Source of the DNA: Armatimonadota bacterium
GTDB taxonomy: Bacteria > Armatimonadota > Fimbriimonadia > Fimbriimonadales > Fimbriimonadaceae
Assembly: GCA_018268395.1 (NCBI GenBank)
Contig: JAFDWQ010000001.1
Span: 896,644-960,643 of the forward strand
DNA length: 64,000 nt
Direction of reading: 5' to 3'
How positions within the stretch are numbered: position 1 is the first letter of the stretch; every line of letters begins with the position of its first letter. Below are positions 30,988 to 63,834 of the stretch, one piece after another. The position numbers and the translations under genes are program-made. Under the pieces are notes generated by a model, which had not been told where the DNA came from, made no database searches, and saw only the letters and a list, made by a program, of their open reading frames with translations.

Positions 30988-31236
30988 ATGCCTCTTTCGA
31001 AATCCCGCAAAGGAGTCATGTCCGACCTGAGAAAGTTGGTGAAGAACATTAAGGACCAGGTGGAACTGGCCGAACTTGACCTTCAATCCGAAGACGCTCA
31101 CGCCACCCTCAGGTACCGGTTACAGTTCGTCGAGGAATTCGCCAGGCTCGGCCAGCAGACGCTCGGGCCGGCGGAGGACTCCGACGTCAAGGCGCAAACC
31201 TCGGCCAACGGTCAAGAGTCTCCTCGCCAAGCGTGA
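30988..31236 (+). CDS. small charged helical protein of unknown function
   Basis: 82 residues, strongly charged and probably alpha-helical (GVMSDLRKLVKNIKDQVELA, YRLQFVEEFARLGQQ), with a coiled-coil-like heptad of Leu/Val between residues 12 and 55 and no membrane segment. I do not recognise the family. ATG at 30988 is preceded by AGGTGAG. Its 3' end overlaps the convergent oxidoreductase gene by 50 bp. Confidence 0.5.
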   Translation: MPLSKSRKGVMSDLRKLVKNIKDQVELAELDLQSEDAHATLRYRLQFVEEFARLGQQTLGPAEDSDVKAQTSANGQESPRQA

Positions 31237-32218
31237 CCTGTGCGATCAAACGGCCGATCCACGGGCCGAACTTAAACCCGTGCCCGCTGCACGGACTGGC
31301 GAAGAGCACACGACGATCGACCCAGCCGAGCCGAAAGTCTTCGTTCGTGGACACGGTGTAGAGACACCCCAAGGCTTCGACTACGGTCGCGGTGCAGGCG
31401 GCCCGTGGAAACCTCGAACGCGCACGGTCGATCATTAACGCCATTGCATCTTCTTGTGGTATCCGTTCGACGTCTTCCGGATCGGTCTCGGGGCCAGGCG
31501 GATGGAAGCCGATCTTGGTCGTCGAAGCGTCCGGTTCGCTGGGAAAGCCGTAGAGCATGGGATCGGAGTAGTCGATCCAAACCGGCCCCTGGGTTTCAAA
31601 GTCCAGATAGACGACGGTCTGCAACGTCACTCGAAGATCGAGGTCGAGGAACTTTGTCACCCACGCGCCGGTGGTCAGGACGACGCGGTCGAAGCCGTTT
31701 AGGGCCCTCAAGTCGGTGACTTTTCCCTCGACATAGTCGGCGCCCCGATCTTGGACGGCCTTCAAAAGCCCCTCCAAGACGGCGGGGACGTCGGCCCATC
31801 CAGCGCTCAAAGTCATGACTGCGATTTCATCATGTTTGAGAGCCATCTGTGGACAGACCGTTTTAATATCGACGTCTGTCAAGACCCGGTGCGGGACGTT
31901 CAGGTTGTCCAACGTGTCCAGTTCGTGCACGATCTCGGACGAGTCGTGCCGTCCGATCGACAGGAGCCCGACCTCGTGGATCAGCTTGCGCCCCAAGTCC
32001 TTCTCAAGGTCGTGCCACATCTCGTGGCCCTCGAGCAGGATCTCCGTATAGAACTGATCGGGGTAAGCCTGCCGAACGATGCGCGAGCGGCCGTGGCTAC
32101 TCCCTTGTGTGTTCCCCGGTCGGATCTGCTCGAAGAGCGTGACCTGATGGCCGCGCTTGAGCAGTTCCCGGGCGGTGCAAAGTCCCATGATCCCGGCACC
32201 GACGATGGCGACGTTCAT
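31187..32218 (-). CDS. DAO-family FAD-dependent oxidoreductase (sarcosine oxidase-like)
   Basis: 343 residues. The N terminus is an FAD fold (MNVAIVGAGIMGLCTARELL), then the monomeric sarcosine/N-methyltryptophan oxidase landmarks GSSHGRSRIVRQAY and, near the C terminus, LYTVSTNEDFRLG and FASPCSGHGFKFGPWIG, where the Cys is the usual site of covalent FAD. It probably oxidises a secondary amine or amino sugar. ATG at 32218 follows AGGAGG by 8 bases; that Shine-Dalgarno sequence lies inside the hairpin repeat at 32224-32274. It is downstream of the NanE-ROK gene. Confidence 0.85.
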   Translation of the reverse strand: MNVAIVGAGIMGLCTARELLKRGHQVTLFEQIRPGNTQGSSHGRSRIVRQAYPDQFYTEILLEGHEMWHDLEKDLGRKLIHEVGLLSIGRHDSSEIVHELDTLDNLNVPHRVLTDVDIKTVCPQMALKHDEIAVMTLSAGWADVPAVLEGLLKAVQDRGADYVEGKVTDLRALNGFDRVVLTTGAWVTKFLDLDLRVTLQTVVYLDFETQGPVWIDYSDPMLYGFPSEPDASTTKIGFHPPGPETDPEDVERIPQEDAMALMIDRARSRFPRAACTATVVEALGCLYTVSTNEDFRLGWVDRRVLFASPCSGHGFKFGPWIGRLIAQVTLGEETLDRWPRFAP

Positions 32219-32223
32219 CCGGA

Positions 32224-32274
32224 CCCCCTCCTCGTGTGCAGGGGATGGTTCGTGCCCCGAACATGAGGAGGGGG
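32224..32274. repeat. isolated copy of the conserved-loop hairpin family
   Basis: The outer stem CCCCCTCCTCGTG (32224-32236) pairs with CATGAGGAGGGGG (32262-32274), one G-T wobble. The inner stem is GGGG (32241-32244) with CCCC (32255-32258), and the loop is ATGGTTCGTG. The same loop caps the hairpins at 62872-63129. The repeat fills most of the gap between two genes and its left arm holds the Shine-Dalgarno sequence of the downstream minus-strand gene. Confidence 0.75.
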
Positions 32275-32306
32275 CAGGGGGTGGAGCGGTCCGGAAGGTG
32301 TGCCGT

Positions 32307-33746
32307 TCATCGTGAGAACACACCTATCGGGGGCCAGAGCGCAAGGGCTGCTGCGCCGTAGAGTCCGGCGTCTTCACCGAACGGTGAAAGGCTACAGGCA
32401 TGTTCATGAAGCTCCTCGTCTTCGGCCAGCTTCTGAAACCAATCGCTCGCGGCGACGCCTCCACAGACGACGATTCCGTCTGGCATGAAAAGATCGTGGA
32501 CGAGGGCCAAGACCGACTCGAACACCCTGTAGTATCCCAACTTTTCGTCATCTGAATGGAGCCTGGCAGCGATCTTGCCGCCCAAAGACTCTTCGACCGT
32601 CAGGCCGCCGGGCAAAAAGAGGTCGTTGACTCTTGGATAACGGCCGTTCCACGCCGTCAGTAGTTCTTCACGAACGACGTAGCCCGCCCCGACACCGGTG
32701 CCGAGTGAGATCGTGAACGTCTTCTCTCCGATTCCGATCGGAGCACAAGCGTGCCCCCATGCTGCGGCAAGTCCGTCGTTCAAGGGAAAGGCGCGGAGTC
32801 CCTCGCGGAAGGAATATCCCACGTTGTCCGGGATGGTGTCCTTCGTTTCATGCATCTTGCCCGTTCTGGGATCGATCGTCCCGCCCGTCGCGATCCCGAC
32901 CTTAGCGACTCCGGCGTTCTGGCACTGCTCAAGGATCCAAGACTTCCGGACTTCGTTCGAATCGGGTAGAGGGATCCGAACGATAGGTCCTGGCTTCCAG
33001 TCAGGGCCGAACGTGGCGAACCTCATCCAGGTTCCACCGATGTCGACCGCCCCGACCGCACTCTGCGGTCTCCGGGTCGCGGAGACGAACTTCGCCGTCT
33101 GCTTGTAGGCGTCATTGATCGCTGAGCCGATGACGACACCGATCGCTCCCGTTGCCAACGCAGCCTTCACCTGGGACTCCTGATCGAAGCGACCTTCTGC
33201 GAGCAACGGTAGACCTGAGCGATGTTCCCTGACCAATAGTAGGTCCGGTCGGGGGGACCCGCAGTCTTGGTCTGTATAACCGGCGAGCGTTGAGGAGACG
33301 ATGTCGAAGCCGCAGAGCTTCGCACGAAGGAACATGGCCTGCGAATCGCAGTCGGCGAGGGCGATCCTTCCGGCCGCACGGACCTTTGCCAGCATGGGCT
33401 CCAAGGTCTCCCCACCCGGTTGCGACCGTCCCGTGCAATCCATCGCGATGACCTCGCAACCTGTTTCCAGTAACTCTTCGACCTCGCGCATCGTCGGCGT
33501 GATGTAGATCTCGGAGTCGGGATACTTGCGTTTGATCAGCCCGATCACAGGAACGCCGGTCTCACCTTTGATCCGCTTGATGTTCTCGACGCCCTCGAGC
33601 CGTAGCACCTTCACCCCTTGCATCAGCGAAGCTTTTGCCAATTTGAGGAGCGTTTCGGGATCGTCCAGAGGCGAGCCGGGGGAGGCTTGCACCGACGCGA
33701 TCAGCGGACACTCCTTGAGGACGGCAAGGAATTCGGTGGTCGTCAA
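32307..33746 (-). CDS. fusion of ManNAc-6-P epimerase (NanE) and ROK kinase
   Basis: 479-residue bifunctional protein. Residues 1 to about 222 are NanE, which converts ManNAc-6-P to GlcNAc-6-P in sialic acid breakdown: VIGLIKRKYPDSEIYITPT with the catalytic Lys, EVIAMDCTGRSQPGG and LLAEGRFD. Residues about 232-479 are a ROK sugar kinase: VDIGGTWMRFATF (phosphate loop), SLGTGVGAGYV and VVCGGVAAS. The usual ROK zinc motif HxCxCxxxG is not evident. In E. coli the two activities are separate NanE and NanK. The start TTG overlaps the upstream UDG stop (TTGA). A hairpin repeat separates it from the next gene. Confidence 0.9.
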   Translation of the reverse strand: MTTTEFLAVLKECPLIASVQASPGSPLDDPETLLKLAKASLMQGVKVLRLEGVENIKRIKGETGVPVIGLIKRKYPDSEIYITPTMREVEELLETGCEVIAMDCTGRSQPGGETLEPMLAKVRAAGRIALADCDSQAMFLRAKLCGFDIVSSTLAGYTDQDCGSPRPDLLLVREHRSGLPLLAEGRFDQESQVKAALATGAIGVVIGSAINDAYKQTAKFVSATRRPQSAVGAVDIGGTWMRFATFGPDWKPGPIVRIPLPDSNEVRKSWILEQCQNAGVAKVGIATGGTIDPRTGKMHETKDTIPDNVGYSFREGLRAFPLNDGLAAAWGHACAPIGIGEKTFTISLGTGVGAGYVVREELLTAWNGRYPRVNDLFLPGGLTVEESLGGKIAARLHSDDEKLGYYRVFESVLALVHDLFMPDGIVVCGGVAASDWFQKLAEDEELHEHACSLSPFGEDAGLYGAAALALWPPIGVFSR

Positions 33747-42293: not shown

Positions 42294-43082
42294 GTGAGGT
42301 GCCCGTTCTTCCTCGTCGACGCGTTCGTGGCCGGCCCGTTCACGGGAAACCCCGCGGGGGTCTGTCTGCTCGAGGCCGGTCCGGACCCGGAGTGGGCCGC
42401 CCGCGTCGCGGCCGAAGTCAAACAGGCCGAGACCGCGTTCTGCTGGCCCATAGGCGACCGGTGGGGGCTGAGGTGGTTCACACCGACCGTCGAGGTCGAC
42501 CTGTGCGGGCATGCGACGCTCGCGACCGCCCACGCGCTCTACGAATCTGGCAGGCTGGCGGACGCCGACGCGGTTTTCGAGACGAAGAGTGGAACCTTGA
42601 CGTGCCGTCCGGTGGGCGGCGCGATCGAGATGGACTTTCCCTCGGCCCCGCCGTCGGCCTGTCCTTCTCCGGACGGCTTGGCCGAGGCCCTGGGGACCGA
42701 TTGGACCTGGTGCGGAGAAAACGGCACGGATTGGTTCGTCGAGGTCGGCGACACGGCCTGCCTCCGAGGCTTGTGGCCGGACATGGCGAAGGTCGAGCGG
42801 CTCGGAAAGCGCGGTGTGACCGTAACGGCGGTGGGGGACGGCACGGCGTGCGACTTCGAGAGCCGCTTTTTCGCACCCCAAAGCGGTATTCCTGAGGACG
42901 ACGCGACGGGCTCGGCCCACTGTGCCCTTGCGCCGTATTGGGCGGAACGGCTCGGACGGAACCCGCTGACCGGCCACCAAAGGTCTGCGCGGGGCGCTGT
43001 GATCCAAGTCGAGGTGCGTGACGGCCGCACCGCATTGCGCGGTGCGGCCGTCACGTCCCTTCGCGGCGAATGGCTCCTTTAG
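42294..43082 (+). CDS. PhzF-family isomerase/epimerase
   Basis: 262 residues of the PhzF/diaminopimelate epimerase-like fold. It opens RCPFFLVDAFVAGPFTGNPA, with the catalytic Glu region VKQAETAFCWP and RWFTPTVEVDLCGHATLA, and closes with the symmetrical PEDDATGSAHCALAPYWAERLG. Phenazine-pathway PhzF isomerises DHHA, but most relatives have unknown small-molecule substrates, and no phenazine genes are here. A perfect 17-bp inverted repeat lies 27 bases before its stop codon. Confidence 0.88.
   Translation: MRCPFFLVDAFVAGPFTGNPAGVCLLEAGPDPEWAARVAAEVKQAETAFCWPIGDRWGLRWFTPTVEVDLCGHATLATAHALYESGRLADADAVFETKSGTLTCRPVGGAIEMDFPSAPPSACPSPDGLAEALGTDWTWCGENGTDWFVEVGDTACLRGLWPDMAKVERLGKRGVTVTAVGDGTACDFESRFFAPQSGIPEDDATGSAHCALAPYWAERLGRNPLTGHQRSARGAVIQVEVRDGRTALRGAAVTSLRGEWLL
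43017..43055. repeat. perfect 17-bp inverted repeat inside the end of the PhzF gene
   Basis: CGTGACGGCCGCACCGC (43017-43033) pairs without mismatch to 43039-43055 around the loop ATTGC. It lies within codons near the PhzF C terminus and 33 bases beyond the stop of the convergent chemosensory operon. No T tract follows on either side. Confidence 0.8.
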
Positions 43083-62844: not shown

Positions 62845-62915
62845 CCCCCTCCGTCCCGCCGGAGCGGTCCACCTCCCCCGAGTGCGGCACGGACCATCCG
62901 CGTTCAGGGGAGGAC
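62845..62915 (+). repeat. repeat unit A with conserved-loop hairpin
   Basis: The outer stem CCTCCCC (62872-62878) pairs with GGGGAGG (62907-62913). The inner stem GCGG (62884-62887) pairs with CCGC (62898-62901), loop CACGGACCAT. Its first 37 bases match unit C in inverted orientation exactly. Confidence 0.85.
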
Positions 62916-62990: not shown

Positions 62991-63069
62991 CCCCCTCCGT
63001 CTGCGGGCACGGACATCCCGCAGCCACCTCCCCCGAGTGCGGCACGGACCATCCGCGATCAGGGGAGGA
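62991..63069 (+). repeat. repeat unit B with two conserved-loop hairpins
   Basis: It has the same orientation as unit A. Hairpin B2: CTGCGGG (63001-63007) with CCCGCAG (63017-63023), loop CACGGACAT. Hairpin B1: outer CCTCCCC (63027-63033) with GGGGAGG (63062-63068), inner GCGG (63039-63042) with CCGC (63053-63056), loop CACGGACCAT. Confidence 0.85.
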
Positions 63070-63593: not shown

Positions 63594-63606
63594 CCCGCCC
63601 GCGCCT

Positions 63607-63795
63607 CAAACCTGCAAGACTGCGTGTACTGTCTACATGATCGCGTGTCAATGCTGCAGGACCGCGTGTCAACCCTGCAAGACCGCGTGTCAAGCGAGCA
63701 AGATTGTGTGTCAATCCTGCAAGACCGCGTGTCAACGCTGCATGACCGCGTGTCAAGCGAGCAAGATTGTGTGTCAATCCTACATGTCCGTGTGT
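63607..63795. repeat. nine-copy 21-bp tandem repeat array
   Basis: Nine adjoining 21-base units with no gaps. The typical unit begins CAAN(C/G)CTGCA and ends GACCGCGTGT; units 5 and 8 are identical, and units 4-6 and 7-9 form a higher-order 63-base repeat. Read on the minus strand each unit has TTGACA. The length is seven codons, so reading frames stay open on both strands. Confidence 0.85.
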
Positions 63796-63834
63796 CCGGT
63801 CACAGGACGGAGGCTCCTGCAGACCTGACACACG
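63789..63834. repeat. long imperfect stem-loop after the tandem array
   Basis: CGTGTGTC (63789-63796) pairs with GACACACG (63827-63834), then GGTC with GACC and AGGA with TCCT around the loop CGGAGGC; 16 Watson-Crick pairs in three blocks separated by small bulges. Confidence 0.65.

Follow-up and report, generated by a model that had tools for sequence, protein, structure and literature searches.

The hairpin at 32224-32274 of the window (the whole 64,000-nucleotide stretch of DNA analysed here) is one copy of a dispersed repeat family. We propose, with a probability of roughly 0.6, that it is a solo, non-autonomous copy of a long-looped, lineage-specific palindrome of the BoxC/PIT/TM type and that the family is spread by DUF559 nucleases. 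The repeat class itself is already known; the long-looped family and the DUF559 link appear to be new, and neither was found in the accessible text of the open-licence papers searched. The features at the hairpin locus are the following:

31187-32218, minus strand, FAD-dependent oxidoreductase (DAO) gene (PF01266, 158.7 bits), start ATG within the left repeat
32212-32219, plus strand, left copy of the 8-bp direct repeat CGTTCATC, a candidate target-site duplication
32220-32303, plus strand, inserted element of 84 nt between the direct-repeat copies, missing at the orthologous junction of the related genomes G002 and G003
32224-32274, plus strand, hairpin (pyrimidine arm, inner stem and loop, purine arm), 81.4 bits with the family model at 32223-32277
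32243-32256, plus strand, core GGATGGTTCGTGCC, T or C at one place and otherwise invariant in 21 copies
32277-32286, plus strand, G-rich tail GGGGGTGGAG, mirror of the purine arm and candidate third strand, 10/10 triplets
32304-32311, plus strand, right copy of the 8-bp direct repeat CGTTCATC
32307-33746, minus strand, NanE-ROK fusion gene (PF04131, 168.4 bits, and the list of open reading frames), stop codon within the right repeat

The sequence at 32224-32274, CCCCCTCCTCGTGTGCAGGGGATGGTTCGTGCCCCGAACATGAGGAGGGGG, forms a strong imperfect hairpin; folded as single-stranded DNA, it has an energy of -18.1 kcal/mol (z -5.25), which was equalled by 0/200 shuffles. The hairpin, the loop ATGGTTCGTG and the inner stem GGGG/CCCC described in an earlier, sequence-only reading are real, while the outer stem comprises 14 bp, including one G.T wobble, and not the 13 bp given there. 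Elsewhere in the window, a near-perfect 23-bp hairpin with a 5-nt loop is present at 43011-43061, and its sequence is unrelated to this hairpin family.

The hairpin element at the junction of the NanE-ROK and FAD oxidoreductase genes is an insertion. A search for the FAD oxidoreductase had matches in 17/21 genomes, and the two genes are adjacent in G001, G002, G003, G004 and G010. Comparison of the gap in these close relatives, as the sequence-only reading had suggested, showed that the hairpin is absent in G002 and G003, in which a GTGA-like junction joins the two genes, end to end or overlapping, without a gap; relative to both genomes, the window carries an additional 84 nt (32220-32303), bounded on either side by a copy of CGTTCATC. 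When the insert and one repeat copy are removed, the joined flanks match G002 over 120 nt without gaps, and G003 with one 1-nt gap. The G001 junction has a different spacer of 40-odd nt, and the joined flanks align to G001, G004 and G010 with gaps. As a result of the 8-bp direct repeat, which the insertion probably created, the NanE-ROK gene keeps its stop codon and the FAD gene its start codon. In an equal search space, an 8-mer repeat was found at 392/20000 random places, and at the exact spacing at 1/20000. Over 22 copies of the family, flanking repeats were only slightly longer than in permuted data (5.36 vs 4.85, 0/500 as high), and several of them are the element's own TCCGGA ends. A target-site duplication common to the 22 copies was therefore not retained as a family feature. 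Judged as a MITE, i.e. as an insertion with a target-site duplication, the element is clearly inserted, while the 8-bp repeat rests on this one locus and the signal over the 22 copies is weak.

The loop match by itself was dropped as evidence for a family, because the 10-nt loop, with one mismatch allowed, gave 4 matches within the window vs 3.9 expected by chance. By contrast, the longer 12-nt core ATGGTYCGTGCC had 22 matches in the window's own genome (G000; 3.72 Mb in 15 contigs) vs 0 for the reversed control. Alignment of 21 copies around the core matches gave three types, i.e. type A (CCCCCTCCTCGTGTG...), to which the window copy belongs, type B (CCTCCCCTGA...), which is the form at the window's DUF559 gene, and type C, the foot of which is mostly GTGG or GTAG; the part common to all three is the core GGATGGTYCGTGCC. 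In 12 copies of type A (11 distinct), 93.3% of cells in the stem are paired, with changes on both sides at 5 pairs, and the covariation score is 0.194 vs 0.101 for shuffled alignments (0/500) and at most 0.111 when slid. The G.T wobble in the stem is retained in 10/11 distinct copies. A covariance model gave the 81.4 bits for the window copy, which is a member of the training set, and also detected the type B hairpins beside the DUF559 gene. These observations bear out the earlier claim that the loop is shared with DUF559-linked repeats, the stems of which differ and still pair. The features at the DUF559 gene of the window are the following:

62870-62913, minus strand, type B hairpin beside the DUF559 gene, covariance model 31.7 bits
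63025-63068, minus strand, type B hairpin beside the DUF559 gene, covariance model 31.6 bits
63168-63593, plus strand, DUF559 (PF04480) Vsr-like nuclease gene, the proposed partner (76.1 bits; Pfam gathering cut-off 20.6)

A third item at the DUF559 side, near 63002-63023, is a shorter variant, GGGATGTCCGTGCC. Directly 3' of the DUF559 gene, at 63599-63808, lies a 21-nt tandem array of CCGCGTGTCAACCCTGCAAGA-like units.

Among relatives, the covariance model had matches in 16/61 genomes, with 45 in G000 (some copies being counted on both strands), 28 in G013, 19 in G002, 11 in G003, 10 in G016 and 9 in G001. A count of 22/61 genomes with GATGGTYCGTGCC as carriers of the family was dropped: in genomes with one or two copies, many of these matches look like chance matches or lack a matching stem, and 16/61 is the safer count. 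An automatic open-reading-frame test for intergenic placement was likewise abandoned, since the caller fused spurious long frames over known gaps, including that of the window copy.

Following the stem, the window copy has CA and then GGGGGTGGAG, which mirrors the purine arm GAGGAGGGGG. In 21 type A copies from four genomes, the tail varies with the arm, i.e. GAGGAAGGGG occurs with GGGGATGGAG, GAGGGAGGGG with GGGGAGGGAG and GAGGGGGGGG with GGGGGGGGAG. Tail and arm match at 10/10 positions in 16/21 of these copies vs 6.4 when permuted (0/2000), and after removal of duplicates (14 copies) the match is 9.57 vs 8.82 (0/2000). The layout of a class II intrastrand triplex, i.e. a 5' pyrimidine arm, a purine arm and a 3' reverse-Hoogsteen purine strand, is thus present, and the window copy forms 10/10 putative triplets. 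Because the G-rich tail covaries with the purine arm, we conclude that the repeat, judged by its sequence layout, is of the class II intrastrand-triplex type, like E. coli BoxC/PIT/TM. Purine-motif triplexes are not formed in RNA according to the accessible text of PMC4666352, and the constraint on the third strand therefore points to DNA.

The genome of the window contains three DUF559 genes. Two type B hairpins lie beside the gene in the window, and two other DUF559 units, which are 94% identical over 736 bp, are at different places in the genome. These two units (L034 1779-2884 and L035 2214-3005) are located within clusters of triplex-type motifs. Stand-alone DUF559 genes of the window's order also have strong GC-rich palindromes on their flanks. 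For a broader sample, GTDB contigs were scanned with four DUF559 proteins, giving at least 597 candidates, of which 549 were confirmed and the best 80 loci kept. These loci include Armatimonadetes, Chloroflexi, Planctomycetota, Alpha-, Gamma- and Deltaproteobacteria, Prevotella, Verrucomicrobia, Nitrospirae, Parcubacteria and others.

Over the best 80 loci, strong hairpins occur at 3.07/kb within 150 nt of the DUF559 gene vs 0.34-0.50/kb at a distance of 1.2-6 kb, and a strong hairpin is present in 71/133 intergenic segments adjacent to DUF559 vs 49/240 others (p 2e-10). The enrichment is confined to hairpins with a pyrimidine 5' arm and a purine 3' arm: 97 are found in the 61.9 kb closest to DUF559, up to a distance of 400 nt (1.566/kb), and 25 in 638.6 kb more than 1 kb away (0.039/kb), i.e. 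a 40-fold difference, while all other hairpins occur at 0.436 vs 0.387/kb; the interval from 400 to 1000 nt was excluded from both density counts. A pyrimidine/purine-arm hairpin lies near DUF559 in 56/80 of these loci, some of which are cut by contig ends, and on both sides in 23; the remaining 24/80 have none nearby. The G-rich tail is directed towards the DUF559 gene in 64/97 of these hairpins. Moreover, for 65 G-tailed hairpins from 40 DUF559 loci across phyla, the tail matches its own arm at 8.20 vs 7.19 per 10 positions (0/1000). By order, 26/30 DUF559 loci in the order of Dyella have a pyrimidine/purine-arm hairpin within 400 nt, as do 19/29 in the window's order and 2/3 in G000, where the long-looped type B of the window falls outside the filter. 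At control loci, the same search gave 0/20 for Y1_Tnp genes in the order of Dyella, 0/4 for Y1_Tnp genes in relatives and 0/16 for loci matching the FAD oxidoreductase query. We conclude that a triplex-type repeat architecture flanks DUF559 genes across phyla. Some DUF559 frames (L147, L121 and others) run into the palindrome and gain PSPPEGRGG-like tails.

The AlphaFold2 model of the window's DUF559 protein (mean pLDDT 85.7) has fold matches to NGO0050 (E 2.4e-6) and to the domain of the homing endonuclease I-Bth0305I (E 9.1e-4), and weaker matches to PvuRts1I (E 1.4e-3) and Vsr (E 0.26, TMq 0.55); PADLOC defence models had no match to two DUF559 proteins. In Caulobacter, the DUF559 protein VsrA is described as Vsr-like, as a member of the PD-(D/E)XK superfamily and as a predicted mismatch-repair endonuclease in the accessible text of PMC12907096.

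This enzymology also suits the notion that DUF559 processes or polices the repeats, e.g. as a structure- or mismatch-specific repair nuclease that has settled among them, with replication slippage or gene conversion as the means by which they spread. The modelled Vsr-like fold, the predicted function of VsrA and the retained G.T wobble are all consistent with this, as is the link of TM motifs to local instability reported in the accessible text of PMC4666352. However, policing leaves unexplained that the DUF559 gene is bracketed by repeats, that DUF559 units are duplicated and that the window element is a clean insertion with a direct repeat, and we regard it as unlikely. The T.G mismatch was also considered as a Vsr-type recognition mark, but this is no more than speculation: type A retains the mismatch, whereas in other phyla many of the palindromes beside DUF559 pair perfectly.

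Genome content links the palindromes to DUF559 as well. In a set of hand-chosen loci, the pattern CCCTCTCCCN3-6GGGAGAGGG was found in 29/36 DUF559-bearing genomes, with up to 175 copies, while the reversed pattern had 0. In a sample of 150 genomes from the order of Dyella, the CCCTCTCCC palindrome is present in 37, DUF559 in 47 and Y1_Tnp, which is the RAYT domain, in 107. With kinship ignored, DUF559 is present in 23/24 genomes with at least five CCCTCTCCC palindromes vs 24/126 others (p 4e-13), and Y1_Tnp in 19/24 vs 88/126 (p 0.46). Three palindrome-rich genomes, with 145, 76 and 54 copies, had no Y1_Tnp match, and one genome with 21 copies had no DUF559 match. Thus, in the 150 sampled genomes of this one order, CCCTCTCCC palindromes co-occur with DUF559 and not with RAYT genes. 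For the type A model in 61 relatives, the association with DUF559 is weak (13/16 vs 22/45, p 0.04), and G001 has 9 type A model matches and no DUF559 match.

These counts also argue against the reading in which a Y1 transposase (RAYT) moves the hairpin as a REP, in the manner of the REPtrons of E. coli, with DUF559 being incidental. In its favour, G000 has 4 Y1_Tnp matches, one RAYT in G000 has a type C variant copy 373 nt away, and the loop core also occurs in REPs of G017 that have a GGTAGCC foot and flank a RAYT, at distances of 203 and ~800 nt. On the other hand, the GTRG foot was not found in type A or B copies, type A having GGAG or variants, and a type A or B copy with a ATGGTTCGTG-type loop lies within 1 kb of a RAYT at 0/10 loci and within 1 kb of Y1_Tnp at 0/4 places in G000. 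Together with the lack of pyrimidine/purine-arm hairpins at the Y1 control loci, these observations disfavour RAYT as the mobilising agent, and we consider it improbable. The loop core shared with the GTAG-type RAYT-flanking REPs of G017 counts against the DUF559 proposal, which does not account for it. In G017 (C8:456500-459700, L094), GTAG-footed REPs with the same loop flank the RAYT, and many other GCCTCAACCCT hairpins are present there.

At the window site, the sequence-only reading was right about the place of the AGGAGG in the hairpin arm: on the minus (mRNA) strand, GAGGAGG of the 3' arm lies directly upstream of the ATG at 32218-32216, the element supplying GAGGAGGGGG at this position. 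The element would also replace the Shine-Dalgarno region of the FAD gene. Since it supplies, and can pair, the Shine-Dalgarno-like GAGGAGG, the element may affect the FAD gene, as a by-product of the insertion site. That the hairpin is itself a regulatory RNA or terminator-like element selected at its sites, the alternative offered by the sequence-only reading as a dispersed regulatory RNA, draws on this Shine-Dalgarno-like site and on E. coli-type copies presumed active in termination in Enterobacter sp. 638 (accessible text of PMC2869309), but it is very improbable, given that the hairpin is missing at the orthologous locus in relatives, that the tail covaries as a third strand and so points to DNA, that the Rfam search of the window had one tRNA as its sole match and none to the hairpin, and that PIT elements are described as lacking terminator or promoter activity in the accessible text of PMC4666352.

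The other suggestion of that reading, which made the hairpin a non-autonomous mobile element akin to the repeats at DUF559, is upheld by the dispersed family, by the insertion with its 8-bp repeat and by the DUF559 flanks across phyla. The third-strand tail, the 8-bp repeat and the likeness to BoxC/PIT were overlooked in that reading. We propose that DUF559 nucleases mobilise or maintain triplex-type repeats. In this mechanism, the small Vsr-like endonuclease would recognise the single-stranded hairpin or the triplex form, which might be exposed as a folded single strand, e.g. at replication forks; cleavage at the foot of the element would then let repair place copies of it at new sites. DUF559 genes with hairpins on both sides would represent the autonomous form.

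A wider version of this proposal, which we advance tentatively and at somewhat less than even odds, is that DUF559 is the long-missing partner of BoxC/PIT-type palindromes, forming a second REP-like mobile system that is RAYT-independent and occurs in many phyla, E. coli included. In this version, the Vsr-like nuclease, of homing type, would spread its own bracketed gene together with up to hundreds of solo copies. In E. coli MG1655, ycjD is a DUF559 gene (PF04480, E 1.4e-49), and one E. coli K-12 BoxC lies in the ycjD-fabI gap, ~170 nt from ycjD. By sequence and place, this BoxC fits no. 9 of the 23 in the table of PMC4666352 as far as that source was accessible, the table coordinates agreeing at the kb scale but being from another record version. 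E. coli was not among the control genomes matching in the PF04480 profile search, though MG1655 ycjD is a strong match. The question of how BoxC/PIT/TM repeats spread can thus be turned into a simple experiment, as there is a candidate enzyme family that E. coli K-12 carries as ycjD; if true, the partnership would also assign a role to DUF559, which is so far a domain of unknown function.

Among known systems, MITEs resemble the window element in being short, non-coding and inserted with a candidate target-site duplication. They differ in that no transposase with matching inverted repeats was found for the window element, the ends of which are only CCGGAC/GTCCGG. REPs and REPtrons with RAYT/TnpA_REP, as described in the accessible text of PMC3733652 and PMC6006769, are similar in that dispersed short palindromes adjoin a small nuclease-like gene and in that non-autonomous copies outnumber the partner gene; by contrast, the window family has no GTRG foot or nearby Y1/HuH enzyme, and its partner has a predicted Vsr-like fold. 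VsrA of Caulobacter, NGO0050 and the catalytic domain of I-Bth0305I have a domain or fold in common with the window's DUF559 protein; unlike in the window, the accessible text of PMC12907096 names no repeats as a partner of VsrA.

The closest likeness is to BoxC/PIT/TM repeats. According to the accessible text of Holder et al. 2015 (PMC4666352), these have been known since the 1990s, with reports from >260 genomes and a link to genome instability; how they spread is given as not known, and no mobility genes or activity were reported around E. coli TM motifs. The text of PMC4666352 contains no nuclease or DUF terms. In Enterobacter sp. 638, the form CCCTCTCCCXX(X)GGGAGAGGG is described in the accessible text of PMC2869309. 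Instead of the E. coli stem CCCTCTCCC or CCCTCGCCC with a short loop, the window family has the stem CCCCCTCCTC and ~30 nt between the 10-nt triplex arms, i.e. a long centre with its own hairpin and fixed loop and not a loop of 1-6 nt. Because of this long central part, the search settings for TM motifs in the accessible text of PMC4666352 would miss the family. Like BoxC/PIT/TM_ECO as described there, the window family has a pyrimidine arm, a purine arm and a candidate 3' purine third strand on one strand, with a short spacer before the third strand, and it is multicopy and dispersed.
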